In this document: positions 49,892 through 54,634 of the stretch, one piece after another
Numbering within the stretch: the stretch's first letter is position 1
Layout of the letters: the number at the start of each line of letters is the position of its first letter
Source: Streptacidiphilus melanogenes
Lineage (GTDB): Bacteria; Actinomycetota; Actinomycetes; Streptomycetales; Streptomycetaceae
Direction of reading: 5' to 3'
DNA length: 64,000 nucleotides
Assembly: GCF_000787835.1 (NCBI RefSeq)
Contig: NZ_BBPP01000035.1
Span: 3,673-67,672 of the forward strand
Notes under the pieces: generated by a model
What the model was told of the DNA's origin: nothing
Seen by the model: the letters and a program-made list of their open reading frames with translations, nothing else
The model's database searches: none
Translations under genes and position numbers: made by a program

Positions 49892-51235
49892 TCAGGCGCG
49901 GCCGGAGGACTTCTGCGTGCGGCGGGACAGCGAGTCGACGACCACCGCGGCCAGAAGCACGCCACCAGTGATCATGTACTGGATGTCCAGGGTCAGGCCG
50001 AGCATGAACAGCCCGGCGTTGATCGACTCGATGACCAGGATGCCGAGGAGGGCGGACCAGACCCGGCCGCGGCCACCGAAGAGCGAGGTGCCGCCGATGA
50101 CGGCCGCGGCGATGGCCATCATCAGGTTGTTGGGGTCCGCGCCCGCCTGCCCGGCGGCGTTGGTGGTGGCCGCGATGGCCAGACCGCCGAGCGCGGCGAA
50201 GGTCCCGGAGATCGCGTAGACCGAGATCCGCACCATCGGGACGCTGATACCGGCACGCCGGCTCGCCTCGATGTTGCCGCCGACCGCGAACACCTTGCGG
50301 CCGTAGGTGGTGCGGCGCAGCACGAAGTCGCAGATCACCAGCAGGGCCAGGAAGATGACCACGTTGTTCGGCACGCCCGAGGCCCGGTTGAGGATCCACG
50401 CGACCAGGAACGCCCCGACGGCCAGCACCACCGTGCGCGCGATCAGCTCGGCGGTGGGGCGGGCCGGCACGCCGGCCGCCTTCCGTCGGCGCTGCTCCAG
50501 GAAGCCGCTGGCCGCGAAGCCGACCACCGCGATGCCGGCCAGGATGTAGGCGCCGGCGATGTCGCCGCCCAGGAAGTACGAGTTGCCGGAGAACAGCGCG
50601 TTCAGCGCCTTCGGTTCCAGGTTGATCGTGCCGGTCGAGCCGAGCAGCCAGAGCATGACACCCTGCCAGGCCAGGAAGCCGGCCAGGGTGACCACGAAGG
50701 CCGGCACACCGATCTTGGCGAAGATCCAGCCCTGCGCCGCGCCGATCGCCATGCCCGAGAGCAGCGTGACGATGACCGCCAGCCAGGCGTTCCAGTTGTG
50801 CTCGACGGACAGCACCGCGTAGATCGCCGCCGCCAGGCCGCTCACCGAACCGACCGACAGGTCGATCTCGCCGAGCAGCAGCACGAAGACCAGGCCGACG
50901 GCGAGCATGCCGAGGCCGACCATGTAGTAGACGATGAACTCGGCGTTGGCGGCGCTGAAGTACTGGCTGTTCTGCAGACTGAAGATCAGCCAGATGATGA
51001 TCAGGCCGATGACGACCGGCAGCGAGCCCAGCTCACCGCCGCGCACCTTGCGCTTGAACTCGTCGACATAGCCCCGCAGGCCCTCCTGGCGGACCAGCAG
51101 GCGCGGGTCGACGGGCGGCGCGATGGCGGCCGACGGCGTCGGGTCGAGGCCCGGCGGCGGCTCCAGCGGGTTGAACCCGCCCAGCGGATCGGACGGGTCG
51201 GGGGAGCCGGAGGGACGAGTGGGGGGTGTGCTCAC
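49892..51235 (-). CDS. xylH: Sugar ABC transporter permease, XylH-like
   Basis: A 447-aa permease with about ten helices in the BPD_transp_2 family. LLLGEIDLSVGSVSGLAAAIYAVL, PAFVVTLAGFLAWQGVMLWLLGS and the cytoplasmic loop ASRRAGISVPMVRISVYAISGTFAALGG are typical; GGTSLFGGRGRVWSALLG follows. The long N-terminal 55-residue Pro-rich tail is cytoplasmic. Third gene of the operon; its start overlaps the ATPase stop by four bases. Xylose specificity is inferred from family resemblance, not proved. Confidence 0.88.
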   Translation of the reverse strand: MSTPPTRPSGSPDPSDPLGGFNPLEPPPGLDPTPSAAIAPPVDPRLLVRQEGLRGYVDEFKRKVRGGELGSLPVVIGLIIIWLIFSLQNSQYFSAANAEFIVYYMVGLGMLAVGLVFVLLLGEIDLSVGSVSGLAAAIYAVLSVEHNWNAWLAVIVTLLSGMAIGAAQGWIFAKIGVPAFVVTLAGFLAWQGVMLWLLGSTGTINLEPKALNALFSGNSYFLGGDIAGAYILAGIAVVGFAASGFLEQRRRKAAGVPARPTAELIARTVVLAVGAFLVAWILNRASGVPNNVVIFLALLVICDFVLRRTTYGRKVFAVGGNIEASRRAGISVPMVRISVYAISGTFAALGGLAIAATTNAAGQAGADPNNLMMAIAAAVIGGTSLFGGRGRVWSALLGILVIESINAGLFMLGLTLDIQYMITGGVLLAAVVVDSLSRRTQKSSGRA

Positions 51236-52062
51236 GCCTCTCCTTCCGGACGCGGCCAGGTGGCGCGCGCCGCGCGCCGGGTGACCGCGTTGTCGGTGGC
51301 GCCGGTGATCGCGGCGATGATCGTCTCCTGGGTGGTGCCGGCCATCGGGAACGTGCCGTTGTTCCGCCCGAGCCGAAGCACCGCGACGGTGTCGGCCACC
51401 GCGGCCACGTCGACCATGTTGTGACTGATCAGGATGACGCCGAGGTCCCGGCCGCGCAGCCGCTCGACCAGGTCCAGGACCTGCGCGGTCTGCTCGACGC
51501 CGAGGGCGGCCGTCGGCTCGTCCAGGATGACGACCTTCGGGTCGCCGATCAGCGAGCGGGCGATGGCGACCACCTGCCGCTGACCACCCGACAGGCTCGC
51601 CACCGGGATGCGCACGCTCGGGATGCGGATCGACAGCGTGTCCAGCAGCTCCTGGGCGCGCTTCTCCATGGCCACCTCGTCGAGGGTGCCGTGCGTCGTC
51701 AGCTCACGGCCGAGGAAGAGGTTCGCGACCACGTCGAGGTTGTCCGCGAGCGCGAGGTCCTGGTAGACGGTCGCGATGCCCAGGTGCTGGGCGTCCTGCG
51801 GCCGGTGGACGGAGACCGGCCGCCCCTCCCACTCGATCTGGCCGTCGTCGATGGTGTGCACCCCGGCGATGGACTTGACCAGGGTGGACTTGCCGGCGCC
51901 GTTGTCGCCGACCAGCGCCACCACCTCGCCCTGGTGGACCTCCAACTCCACGTCGGTCAGGGCCTGCACGGCGCCGAAGCGCTTGGAGATGCCGCGCAGG
52001 GCCAGGACCGGTTCGCCGTCGGCCAGGGCCGAGGCGTAGGAACGGGAGACGGGGTCGGTCAC
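51232..52062 (-). CDS. xylG: Sugar ABC transporter ATPase, XylG-like (single domain)
   Basis: A 276-aa single-domain ATPase. Walker A GDNGAGKST, Q-loop near TVYQDLALADNLDVV, signature LSGGQRQVVAIARSL, Walker B VVILDEPTAALGVEQTAQVLDL, and H-loop LISHN. Classical XylG/AraG ATPases have two such domains (about 500 aa), so this is the shorter streptomycete form. GTG start overlaps the binding-protein stop. Confidence 0.92.
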   Translation of the reverse strand: MTDPVSRSYASALADGEPVLALRGISKRFGAVQALTDVELEVHQGEVVALVGDNGAGKSTLVKSIAGVHTIDDGQIEWEGRPVSVHRPQDAQHLGIATVYQDLALADNLDVVANLFLGRELTTHGTLDEVAMEKRAQELLDTLSIRIPSVRIPVASLSGGQRQVVAIARSLIGDPKVVILDEPTAALGVEQTAQVLDLVERLRGRDLGVILISHNMVDVAAVADTVAVLRLGRNNGTFPMAGTTQETIIAAITGATDNAVTRRAARATWPRPEGEA

Positions 52063-53192
52063 GTCAGCCCCGCGGACTTGCAGGCGGCCTCGTACTGCGG
52101 GGTGCAGATCTGCGCGACGGTGTAGAGGCCGTCGGCGACGACCGTCTGCTTGATGTTGCTCGTGTTGACCAGGACCGGGGTCAGCAGGTCGGACGAGACG
52201 GTGTTGCCGGAGCCGTTCACCTTGGTCGAGCTCGCGATCGAGGTGATCGGCGCCCCGGTGAGCAGGTTCACGGCGATCTGGGCCGCGGCGTCGGCCTCGG
52301 GCTTGTAGGCCTTGTAGATCGTGAAGGACTGGGTGCCGGACACGATCCGCTGGATCGCGTCGAGCTGGGCGTCCTGGCCGGTGAGCGGCAGGTGGCTGAG
52401 CCCGGCGTTCTTCATCGAGGTCGCGATACCGGCGGCCATGCCGTCGTTGGCGGAGTAGAAGGCCGCGATGTTCGACGCGCCGAGCTGGTTGATCGCGGCG
52501 GTGGCCTTCTGGGCGGCGACGTCGGGCTTCCACAGGCCCGAGGCGTCGTAGGCGATGTCGACGTGGCCCTTGACCGCGCTCTGGAAGCCGGCCTTGAAGT
52601 CGCCGGCGTTGGGGTCGGCCGAGTCGCCGTCGATCTCGACGATCTTCGCGGACGGCGTGGCCTTGGAGCCCATGACGGCGAGCAGCCCGGTGCCCTGGAG
52701 GTGGCCGACCTTGACGTTGTCGAACGACACGTAGGCGTCGACCGGGCCCTGCGCGAGGCGGTCGTAGGCGACGACCTTGATGCCCTTGGCCTTGGCGGCC
52801 TCGACCGAGGACTTGATCTGCGCGGAGTCCTGCGCGTCGACGACGAGCACCTTGACGCCGGAGTTGATCATCGTGGTGGCCTGCTGTGCCTGCGTCTGGG
52901 CGCTGCCGCCCGCGTTGGCGTACTTGACGGTGACGTTGGGCGCGAGCGCCTTGACCTCGGCCTCGAACAGCGGCTTGTCGAACTGCTCGTAGCGGGTCGT
53001 GGTGTTCTCCGGCAGCAGCAGGCCGATGCTTCCGGTCGCGTTGGCCGCCGCCGCCGTACCCCCGGCCCCCGAGGCTGCGGGGGAGGACGAAGAAGAGGAG
53101 GAGCTCCCCGCCTTCCCGCACGCCGCCGCGGCCAGAACCAGCGAGACGACAGCGGTGGCGGTGACGGCGCTCTTGAGAGGGTGCTTGTTCAC
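52059..53192 (-). CDS. xylF: Sugar ABC substrate-binding lipoprotein, XylF-like
   Basis: A 377-aa periplasmic-binding-protein family 1 lipoprotein. Signal peptide with lipobox ending at Cys25 (AAACGKAG), Ser-rich linker 30-50, then IGLLLPENTTTRYEQFDKPLFEAEVKAL, INSGVKVLVVDAQDS, VAYDRLAQGP, VEIDGDSADPNAGDFKAGF and GQDAQLDAIQRIVSGTQSFTIYK, the XylF pattern. GTG at 53192 with AGGAAGG eight bases upstream. First gene of the operon; promoter lies in the 485-base gap upstream. Confidence 0.9.
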   Translation of the reverse strand: MNKHPLKSAVTATAVVSLVLAAAACGKAGSSSSSSSSPAASGAGGTAAAANATGSIGLLLPENTTTRYEQFDKPLFEAEVKALAPNVTVKYANAGGSAQTQAQQATTMINSGVKVLVVDAQDSAQIKSSVEAAKAKGIKVVAYDRLAQGPVDAYVSFDNVKVGHLQGTGLLAVMGSKATPSAKIVEIDGDSADPNAGDFKAGFQSAVKGHVDIAYDASGLWKPDVAAQKATAAINQLGASNIAAFYSANDGMAAGIATSMKNAGLSHLPLTGQDAQLDAIQRIVSGTQSFTIYKAYKPEADAAAQIAVNLLTGAPITSIASSTKVNGSGNTVSSDLLTPVLVNTSNIKQTVVADGLYTVAQICTPQYEAACKSAGLT

Positions 53193-53677
53193 GTGACGGC
53201 CTTCCTGGAACGGACTGCTTGATCTGAAACGCAGTACGGCCTTCCGATTGAAAGCCTCGCGCGCGAGGGCCCCTTCCGACACGCCCGGGCACGGGGTGAT
53301 ATTCGCCCGTTCGGCGTATTCATGTTCATGGCGACGTGTGCTTCCACCCTGGTGAAGGCCTTGATCGACGTCATCCAGCTCTGAAGGAGCCCACTCGGGG
53401 CCGCTCGCGGGCCGCCCGAGGCCGTCGGCCTCCGGGCGGGACGGGCGACGCGTCGGGAGCCTTCCCCGGCGCGCCGCCGGGGCTCGGGGGTGTGCGCCGG
53501 ATCCCCTGCGGGGCATCCCTGACGTGACGCCAGATTTTCCCTCATGGGTCGTCAAAGGCCGCAGAATCTCCGGTCGAAGGCCGTCTGCGCCATAGACATG
53601 ACACCTGTCGGGCCGTTAGTTTCCGGGTGGCCACGTCGTGGCTGGACTCCAGGTGACTGACCCCCGAGGGGATCACT
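53193..53677. other. 485-base divergent intergenic region
   Basis: Holds the promoters of the minus-strand xylF operon and of the plus-strand secreted protein. A near-perfect hairpin with a one-base bulge is at about 53412-53439 (CCGCCCGAGGCC / GGCCTCCGGGCGG). An A/T-richer patch at about 53300-53340 (ATATTCGCCCG, ATTCATGTTCATGG) is a candidate control region for the sugar operon. No open frame has a start or family match. Confidence 0.5.
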
Positions 53678-54634
53678 GTGCACATACGCATGTCCGGAAA
53701 CGTCGTCCGCGGCCTCGTCGCCCTCTCGCTCGCCGCCCTCGGCGCGGCCGGCCTCGCGACCGGAGCCGACGCGGCGCCCGCCCCCACGGCCCACGCGGCC
53801 GCCCCGCACCTCGGCATGAAGCCGATCGCCAAGGGATCCGTGCGCGTCGCCGCGAAGGCGAGCAGCTCGAACACCCTCACCGTGCGCTCCGCCGGCACTC
53901 AGGGCGTGGTCTCCCCGACGCCGCAGGTGTACCTGGTCTTCTGGGGTTCTCAGTGGGCCAGTGACCCGGCGGGCGTCGCGCCGGACCTCCAGGCGATGTT
54001 CAAGGGCCTGTACGGCAGCGCCGACACCTGGGGGACGATCCTCACCCAGTACTGCGAGGGCGTCGCGAAGGGCACCGCCACCTGCGGCAGCGGCGGCACC
54101 CACATCACCCACCCCGCCACCAGTCCGCTCGCCGGCGTCTGGTTCGACAACGCCAGCGCCGAGCCGTCCAGCCCGACCGCCGCGCAGATCGCCTCCGAGG
54201 CCGGCAAGGCCGCCGCGCACTTCGGCAACACGACGCAGACGCCGAACCTCAACGCGCAGTACGTCGTCGTCTCCGCGACCGGCACCCACCCGGACGGCTT
54301 CCCGAACTCGGGCTTCTGCGCCTGGCACGACAAGACGTCGAGCAGCTACGGAAACCTGGCCTACACCAATCTCCCCTACGTGCCCGACCTGGGCGTCGAC
54401 GCGTGCACCACGCTCACGGACGGCCGCATGCTCTCCGGCATCGAGTCGACCGAGACCCACGAGTACGCGGAGACCGTCACCGACTTCTGGCCCAGCATCG
54501 GCTGGAACGGAAGGAACGGGGAGGTCGGCGACGAGTGCGAGAACATGGACGCCTTCGTCCCGCTCAGCACCGGCAGCTTCGACCTGCAGGGCCTCTGGTC
54601 CAACAAGGCCAACGCCTGTGTGACCAAGGGCTGA
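53678..54634 (+). CDS. Secreted protein resembling EXORDIUM/Phi-1 family
   Basis: A 318-aa exported protein. Signal peptide (basic RMSGNVVR, hydrophobic 10-25, cleavage near Ala32-Ala33), disordered linker to about 80, and a folded part with VYLVFWGSQW (84-93), TWGTILTQYC (117-126), QYVVVSATGTHPDGF (194-208), FCAWHD (213-218), then DGRMLSGIESTETHEYAETVTD (248-269) and GEVGDECEN (281-289), ending LWSNKANACV. Six cysteines (126, 136, 214, 243, 287, 314) could form three disulfides. Spacing and motifs (VYL..WGS; DGM-type-S-x-HE-x-AE-x-T; final NACV) match the plant EXO/Phi-1 family as I remember it. HEYAE may bind metal. Confidence 0.75.
   Translation: MHIRMSGNVVRGLVALSLAALGAAGLATGADAAPAPTAHAAAPHLGMKPIAKGSVRVAAKASSSNTLTVRSAGTQGVVSPTPQVYLVFWGSQWASDPAGVAPDLQAMFKGLYGSADTWGTILTQYCEGVAKGTATCGSGGTHITHPATSPLAGVWFDNASAEPSSPTAAQIASEAGKAAAHFGNTTQTPNLNAQYVVVSATGTHPDGFPNSGFCAWHDKTSSSYGNLAYTNLPYVPDLGVDACTTLTDGRMLSGIESTETHEYAETVTDFWPSIGWNGRNGEVGDECENMDAFVPLSTGSFDLQGLWSNKANACVTKG

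Follow-up and report, generated by a model that had tools for sequence, protein, structure and literature searches.

The window analyzed here is the whole 64,000-nucleotide stretch of Streptacidiphilus melanogenes DNA, part of contig C73 in a genome of 8.77 Mb, and it carries on its forward strand a gene for a putatively secreted HExxE protein of 318 amino acids (positions 53678..54634; GTG start, TGA stop). A Shine–Dalgarno-like GAGGGG (53666..53671, forward strand), recognized from the sequence, lies six bases upstream of the GTG, and the N-terminus resembles a signal peptide (residues 1–32; 53678..53773, forward strand), with a possible cleavage site after ADA according to a by-eye reading of the translation. 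The open reading frame is a real gene with coding-type substitutions: in a pairwise comparison with its nearest named orthologue, at 94%, from Streptacidiphilus anmyonensis (locus L049), differences at codon positions 1, 2, and 3 number 12, 8, and 38, and the codon changes comprise 38 synonymous and 17 non-synonymous ones. The motif strings quoted by the first-pass annotation are all present in the 318-residue translation and occur in the order given there.

Open reading frames resembling a sugar-binding protein and an ABC ATPase, recognized by eye, adjoin the gene on the opposite strand (window positions 51232–53555, reverse strand). The neighborhood comprises a sugar-type ABC system (opposite strand; named by eye), an ADH-like oxidoreductase, and a cupin/AraC regulator. 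Neither these neighbors nor any other result of the analysis supports the interaction with plants or roots that had been proposed for the protein. Matches of at least 150 bases to the flanking DNA were confined to the Streptacidiphilus loci L049–L053 and were partial in L050, L052, and L053. An operon or partner gene was considered and rejected, given that the match in loci L054–L076 consists of the gene alone, with a further family copy in L071. No promoter or terminator patterns were found near the gene.

The protein belongs to a large bacterial family, represented by 8 copies in the S. melanogenes genome and matched in 31 of the 61 genomes searched (this genome and 60 relatives). Within the genus, 12 of 14 genomes, the present one included, contain a match, and copy numbers range from 0 to 18. 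Profile A2, built from 10 window-family sequences and including none of the bridging proteins described below, matched 15 of the 396 genomes drawn from the phylum at E ≤ 1e-10, and the wider profile A5 matched 19 of the 396 at E ≤ 1e-5. Searches of phages and plasmids yielded no match to the family. A scan of named genomes returned 318 relatives, 80 of which, picked via the patterns HEYAET[VLI]T and [YF]TN..PY, were kept as loci; these originate from Streptacidiphilus, Kitasatospora, Streptomyces, Catenulispora, Dyella, and Oleiagrimonas and from metagenome-assembled genomes labeled Ferrovum, Dormiibacterota, Acidimicrobiaceae, and others. We take many of these genera to be inhabitants of acid places. 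Streptacidiphilus is referred to, in a passage of one paper, as a group of acidophilic actinobacteria (PMC7601586), and the family may, if such a link exists at all, be associated with acid habitats.

Scans of the window protein against Pfam and NCBIfam provided no usable model, and the family is without a domain model in these two libraries. A single NCBIfam row (aminotransferase, E = 0.027) and a PDB row at E = 0.25 were taken as chance matches. Among the 61 members of alignment A3, the Pfam scan detected PF04674 in 6 and no other family in more than 4 (best E = 0.0039), and an NCBIfam scan of 6 relatives gave 2 matches, both outside the domain and below the cut-off. When 10 long relatives were scanned, He_PIG exceeded the cut-off in 6 (L086, L092, L109, L004, L025, and L032), with fn3 and other Ig types also present in L086 and InhA-like_MAM in L092; PKD was found in L102, TIG in L095, and MBG together with Big_3_5 in L128, and L104 had no domain above the cut-off. 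A carbohydrate-binding domain was above the cut-off in none of the 10, the one lectin match (L086) lying below it. A further relative, L040, bears fn3 repeats. Secreted bacterial enzymes commonly carry Ig-type domains behind the catalytic one, and the long relatives with Ig-type or InhA-type MAM domains behind the same domain may represent targeted versions of the single-domain protein encoded in the window.

The first-pass annotation had likened the protein to the plant EXORDIUM/Phi-1 growth regulators (EXO/Phi_1; PF04674). A profile search did not bear this out directly, as the Pfam scan of the window protein returned no family, and hence no PF04674, at E ≤ 10 (curated cut-off, 25 bits), and a PF04674 search of the S. 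melanogenes genome at the same threshold produced a single hit, at an unrelated place, and missed all 8 family copies. What holds is a remote homology through bacterial bridging proteins. Searched against the open reading frames of the fetched loci, profile A2 found L046 (E = 9e-23), L039 (1.1e-17), and L047 (3.4e-17), and the same 3 loci match PF04674 at 1.9e-32, 7.3e-31, and 7.4e-28, respectively; in a single blastp comparison, the window protein itself aligned to L046 with 27% identity over 181 residues (E = 1e-6). Because A2 finds bacterial PF04674 members, the sequence comparisons make it almost certain that the window family is homologous to EXO/Phi_1 over most of the domain. Such actinobacterial PF04674 members are rare: 2 of 396 genomes were above the cut-off, an additional draw of 296 gave 2, seemingly the same ones, and the class of G148, the genome of L039, gave 4 of 247, with G148 counted again there.

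For comparison with the plant protein we used a putative Arabidopsis EXO sequence that is not a database record. Aligned to profile A2 by hhalign, it gave E = 0.09 with a probability of 0.6%, the EXO segment TVTNPF meeting the window-family TVTDFW. This weak direct comparison, the missing PF04674 match of the window protein, and the restriction of PF04674 matches at E ≤ 1 to just 6 of the 61 A3 members, the bridging ones (the same 6 match in single scans), would all fit a coincidental motif order, with bridges that match both families through short stretches and no real relation to EXO. We regard such a coincidence as highly improbable, since the matches are not short: A2 is covered over positions 8–320 in L046, 10–317 in L039, and 8–318 in L047, nearly the whole domain, PF04674 is covered over at least 230 of its 276 positions in all 3, and in genome G148 one and the same gene, that of L039, is found by both A2 (E = 1.2e-14) and PF04674 (6e-30). 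The homology is accompanied by a CxxH motif kept in the bacterial PF04674 members and by probable secretion on both sides.

Conservation within the family is concentrated in one region. In alignment A1 (16 sequences, no motif-picked locus), 13 columns are invariant (G153, C214, H217, P233, H261, E262, E265, D269, W276, E282, D285, C287, and Q304), and 8 of these fall within residues 261–287, which account for 26 of the 246 tested columns (hypergeometric, 4.8e-6). Alignment A3, whose 61 sequences include relatives with as little as 18% identity to the window protein, retains 11 invariant columns, 8 of them in the same region (27 of 271 columns; 4.6e-7), 37 of its 61 rows stemming from motif-picked loci; such loci also supply 29 of the 48 rows of A5 and none of A1 or A2. 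The region contains HExxExxxD (H261, E262, E265, and D269; 54458..54484, forward strand), on and just beyond a predicted helix (residues 253–268), followed by the stretch from W276 to C287 with an invariant ExxDxC (E282, D285, and C287; 54503..54538, forward strand) in a predicted turn after the helix. Upstream lies CxxH (C214 and H217; 54317..54328, forward strand), invariant in A1 and in all 61 rows of A3. Cysteines C126 and C136 (54053..54085, forward strand) occur together in 53 of the 61 A3 rows and are jointly missing from the other 8. They probably form a disulfide, and C214 and C287 possibly form another.

With the motif-picked loci included, the motif occurs in 127 of 130 open reading frames, a figure that is therefore partly circular. 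We thus relied on the loci that had not been motif-picked, whose 81 rows, 9 of them without the region, reduce to 64 distinct sequences after removal of duplicates: HExxE is present in 64 of 64, D at +8 in 63 of 64, and HExxH in none. Conservation of HExxExxxD and ExxDxC is near-strict. A side branch (L154, L143, L141, L142, and L156) reads HEHREMIND, HEHREMTND, or HEHRESIGD, with CAYH at the CxxH position, so that H, E, E, and D are constant and the positions separating H from E variable. The gene at L144:1300–3840 has HEYAEAVTN, with N instead of D at +8, the residue also present in the putative plant TNP form, together with CSDH and GEVADYC. The HExxE region is probably a metal site.

Structure prediction suggests that this motif lies on an active-site-type helix of a metzincin-like fold. 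The window model (mean pLDDT 85.1, pTM 0.82) has H261, E262, and E265 in helix 253–268, with the HE in the second half of the helix as in metzincins, and the model of the PF04674 member L039 (pLDDT 76.1, pTM 0.74) shows a similar order of elements; the two are not independent, A3 and A5 sharing most rows. With Foldseek, neither model had a match at E ≤ 0.001, the best values being 0.15 (window protein) and 0.0032 (L039). For the window model, the first 21 rows consist entirely of zinc proteases (E = 0.15 to 2.0), 15 of them fragilysin, ulilysin, or ADAMTS-4 and 6 the glycopeptidases Amuc_1438 or OgpA, with lower rows mixed. For L039, gephyrin ranks best (E = 0.0032), and gephyrin or Cnx1E, neither of them a protease, occupies 8 of the first 10 rows, with fragilysin at 0.011 and ADAMTS4 at 0.014.

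VIA, a re-ranking of Foldseek's own candidates, lists for the window model 50 metzincins in 50 rows (venom, ADAM, and ADAMTS proteases; Z 8.0 to 6.5), the best at Z 8.0, rmsd 4.2, and 160 aligned residues. By the notes of the tool, models that lack a clear match typically reach a best Z of 7–8, and Z values of this size may reflect just a common arrangement. All 50 rows listed for L039 are metzincin-type by title (Z 9.1 to 7.6; best, Z 9.1, rmsd 3.5, 155 aligned), 3lmc being titled merely zinc-dependent peptidase, and gephyrin is not among them. The metzincin-like fold is favored because both predicted models agree on one superfamily (adamalysins/ADAM, ADAMTS, fragilysin, ulilysin, and archaemetzincin) and not by any single score. 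At the sequence level the two groups differ: the window family has HExxE where metzincins have HExxHxxGxx(H/D), a zinc motif that is absent here, and no profile link emerged. A PDB sequence search with A3 returned nothing at E ≤ 10, and hhalign against the metzincin families M7 and M43 gave E values of 0.17–0.48, inside the span of controls obtained by reversal and permutation (0.04–0.84), although M7 and M43 find each other at 2.4e-5 (13 of 14 M7 loci and 8 of 9 M43 loci, L173 and L179 having been dropped by the motif filter). A search of a viral structure library gave no match at E ≤ 0.001. The metalloprotease likeness suggested earlier is supported by the listed VIA rows, whereas Foldseek scores are weak and sequence comparison adds no link.

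Taken as a whole, the gene product would be a secreted protein of one domain, from a large bacterial family related to PF04674, and we give an even chance to its being a HExxE metal-dependent hydrolase, probably a peptidase; peptidase activity taken by itself we place just short of even. In the mechanism we propose, H261 and E265 would bind the metal together with a further carboxylate (D269, E282, or D285), E262 would serve as the general base, and an extracellular substrate would be hydrolyzed, most likely at peptide bonds. CLCA was set aside as a precedent for a HEXXE site, since excerpts of two papers differ, one giving HEXXE for CLCA1 (PMC6851300) and the other HExxH for CLCA (PMC3650047).

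A secreted protein with a protease-like fold need not be an enzyme, and the HExxE could bind a structural metal such as calcium, or simply hold the fold, in a protein that serves binding or adhesion. ADAM22 is an inactive metzincin homologue, and it heads the VIA ranking for the L039 model, with 5y2z at the top; as in ADAM22, the classical zinc motif of the window family is incomplete. Many relatives bear adhesion-type Ig domains, and the putative EXO sequence has lost the site, yet the family persists in plants. Unlike a decaying site, which would drift, the altered motif of the window family is conserved over divergent members, H, E, and E being kept in all 64 distinct relatives from loci that were not motif-picked, very divergent ones included, and E262, at the usual position of the base, has no obvious structural role. 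A non-catalytic role appears somewhat unlikely to us.

An enzyme whose substrates are glycans or other wall polymers that are not peptides, dependent on a metal or on carboxylates and sharing with metzincins an arrangement only, is an improbable reading. EXO is presented, in part of a 2009 paper, as a secreted mediator of cell expansion (PMC2661892), at least 3 invariant acids could serve acid–base catalysis, the Foldseek and VIA scores are weak, and sequence comparison did not tie the family to peptidases, all of which would suit such an enzyme. Yet the VIA rows listed for both models consist of metzincin-type proteases only, and none of the 10 long relatives has a carbohydrate-binding domain above the cut-off, the lectin match of L086 included. 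We retain the metal-dependent hydrolase, probably a peptidase, as the working interpretation.

The plant protein looks different at the site. The putative Arabidopsis EXO sequence scores 402 bits against PF04674 (E = 1.4e-120, whole profile), so that it should be close to a real member; at the columns of the bacterial H, E, E, and D it reads T, L, N, and N. In the motif order that had been said to follow plant EXO proteins, HEYAE thus departs from the putative EXO sequence at that place. We scored single changes in L046 against PF04674 relative to the unchanged sequence (115.0 bits). Replacing the first H gave 113.8 (A) and 114.7 (T) bits, the first E 114.6 (A) and 115.1 (L), the second E 113.2 (A) and 114.5 (N), and the D 114.3 (A) and 118.8 (N). 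In 2 plant-type fragments, one putatively EXO-like and the other putatively EXO, HExxE outscored TLxxN by 0.7 bits (102.3 versus 101.6 and 140.0 versus 139.3, respectively). By these scores, the PF04674 profile looks mixed at the HExxE columns, where it barely prefers H or E, and appears to prefer N over D at the fourth. Because of this mixed appearance, we infer that some members of the EXO/Phi_1 family keep HExxE, EXO itself being without it, and EXO may be a dead-site descendant. The description of the bacterial site as degenerate may accordingly be the wrong way round, since H, E, and E are kept in the bacterial relatives and absent from the putative EXO sequence.

In a broader and more tentative proposal, which we think possible but would sooner expect to fail than to hold, the whole EXO/Phi_1 superfamily would derive from secreted enzymes of bacteria that had a metzincin-like fold and a HExxE metal site new for that fold; the bacterial proteins, and perhaps some plant EXO-like proteins, would be active hydrolases, and EXO an apoplast pseudo-enzyme without the site. 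EXO promotes plant growth under brassinosteroid control, as stated in the 2009 paper, which found one bacterial relative only, in Solibacter (PMC2661892), and a passage of a 2013 paper describes EXO as having no similarity to other known domains beyond the PHI1 region and a targeting sequence (PMC3691544). Among the matches listed for the open-licence literature, as far as the excerpts extend, none tied EXO to a protease fold; one paper in which EXORDIUM and a metalloprotease co-occur was discarded, the metalloproteases in the relevant excerpt being FtsH, unrelated to EXO (PMC8018971). A distant bacterial cousin of EXORDIUM with a predicted protease-like fold offers a testable lead on a poorly understood family. 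Should the bacterial proteins turn out to be active metallo-hydrolases, what EXO does biochemically would become directly testable, and a protease-like fold would gain a HExxE site. Within a single genus, the family reaches 18 copies per genome.

Several loci show peculiarities of their own. The gene in L031, from a genome listed as 76% complete, is seemingly frame-broken, with pieces of the domain in three reading frames. A phylum search centered on the genome of L079, a metagenome-assembled genome titled Acidobacteria, returned genes whose contig positions and scores equal those from the actinobacterial genomes G148 and G264, and the title may be a mislabel. In L028, L071, L098, L099, L105, and L154, 2 family genes lie close together, which suggests local duplication.
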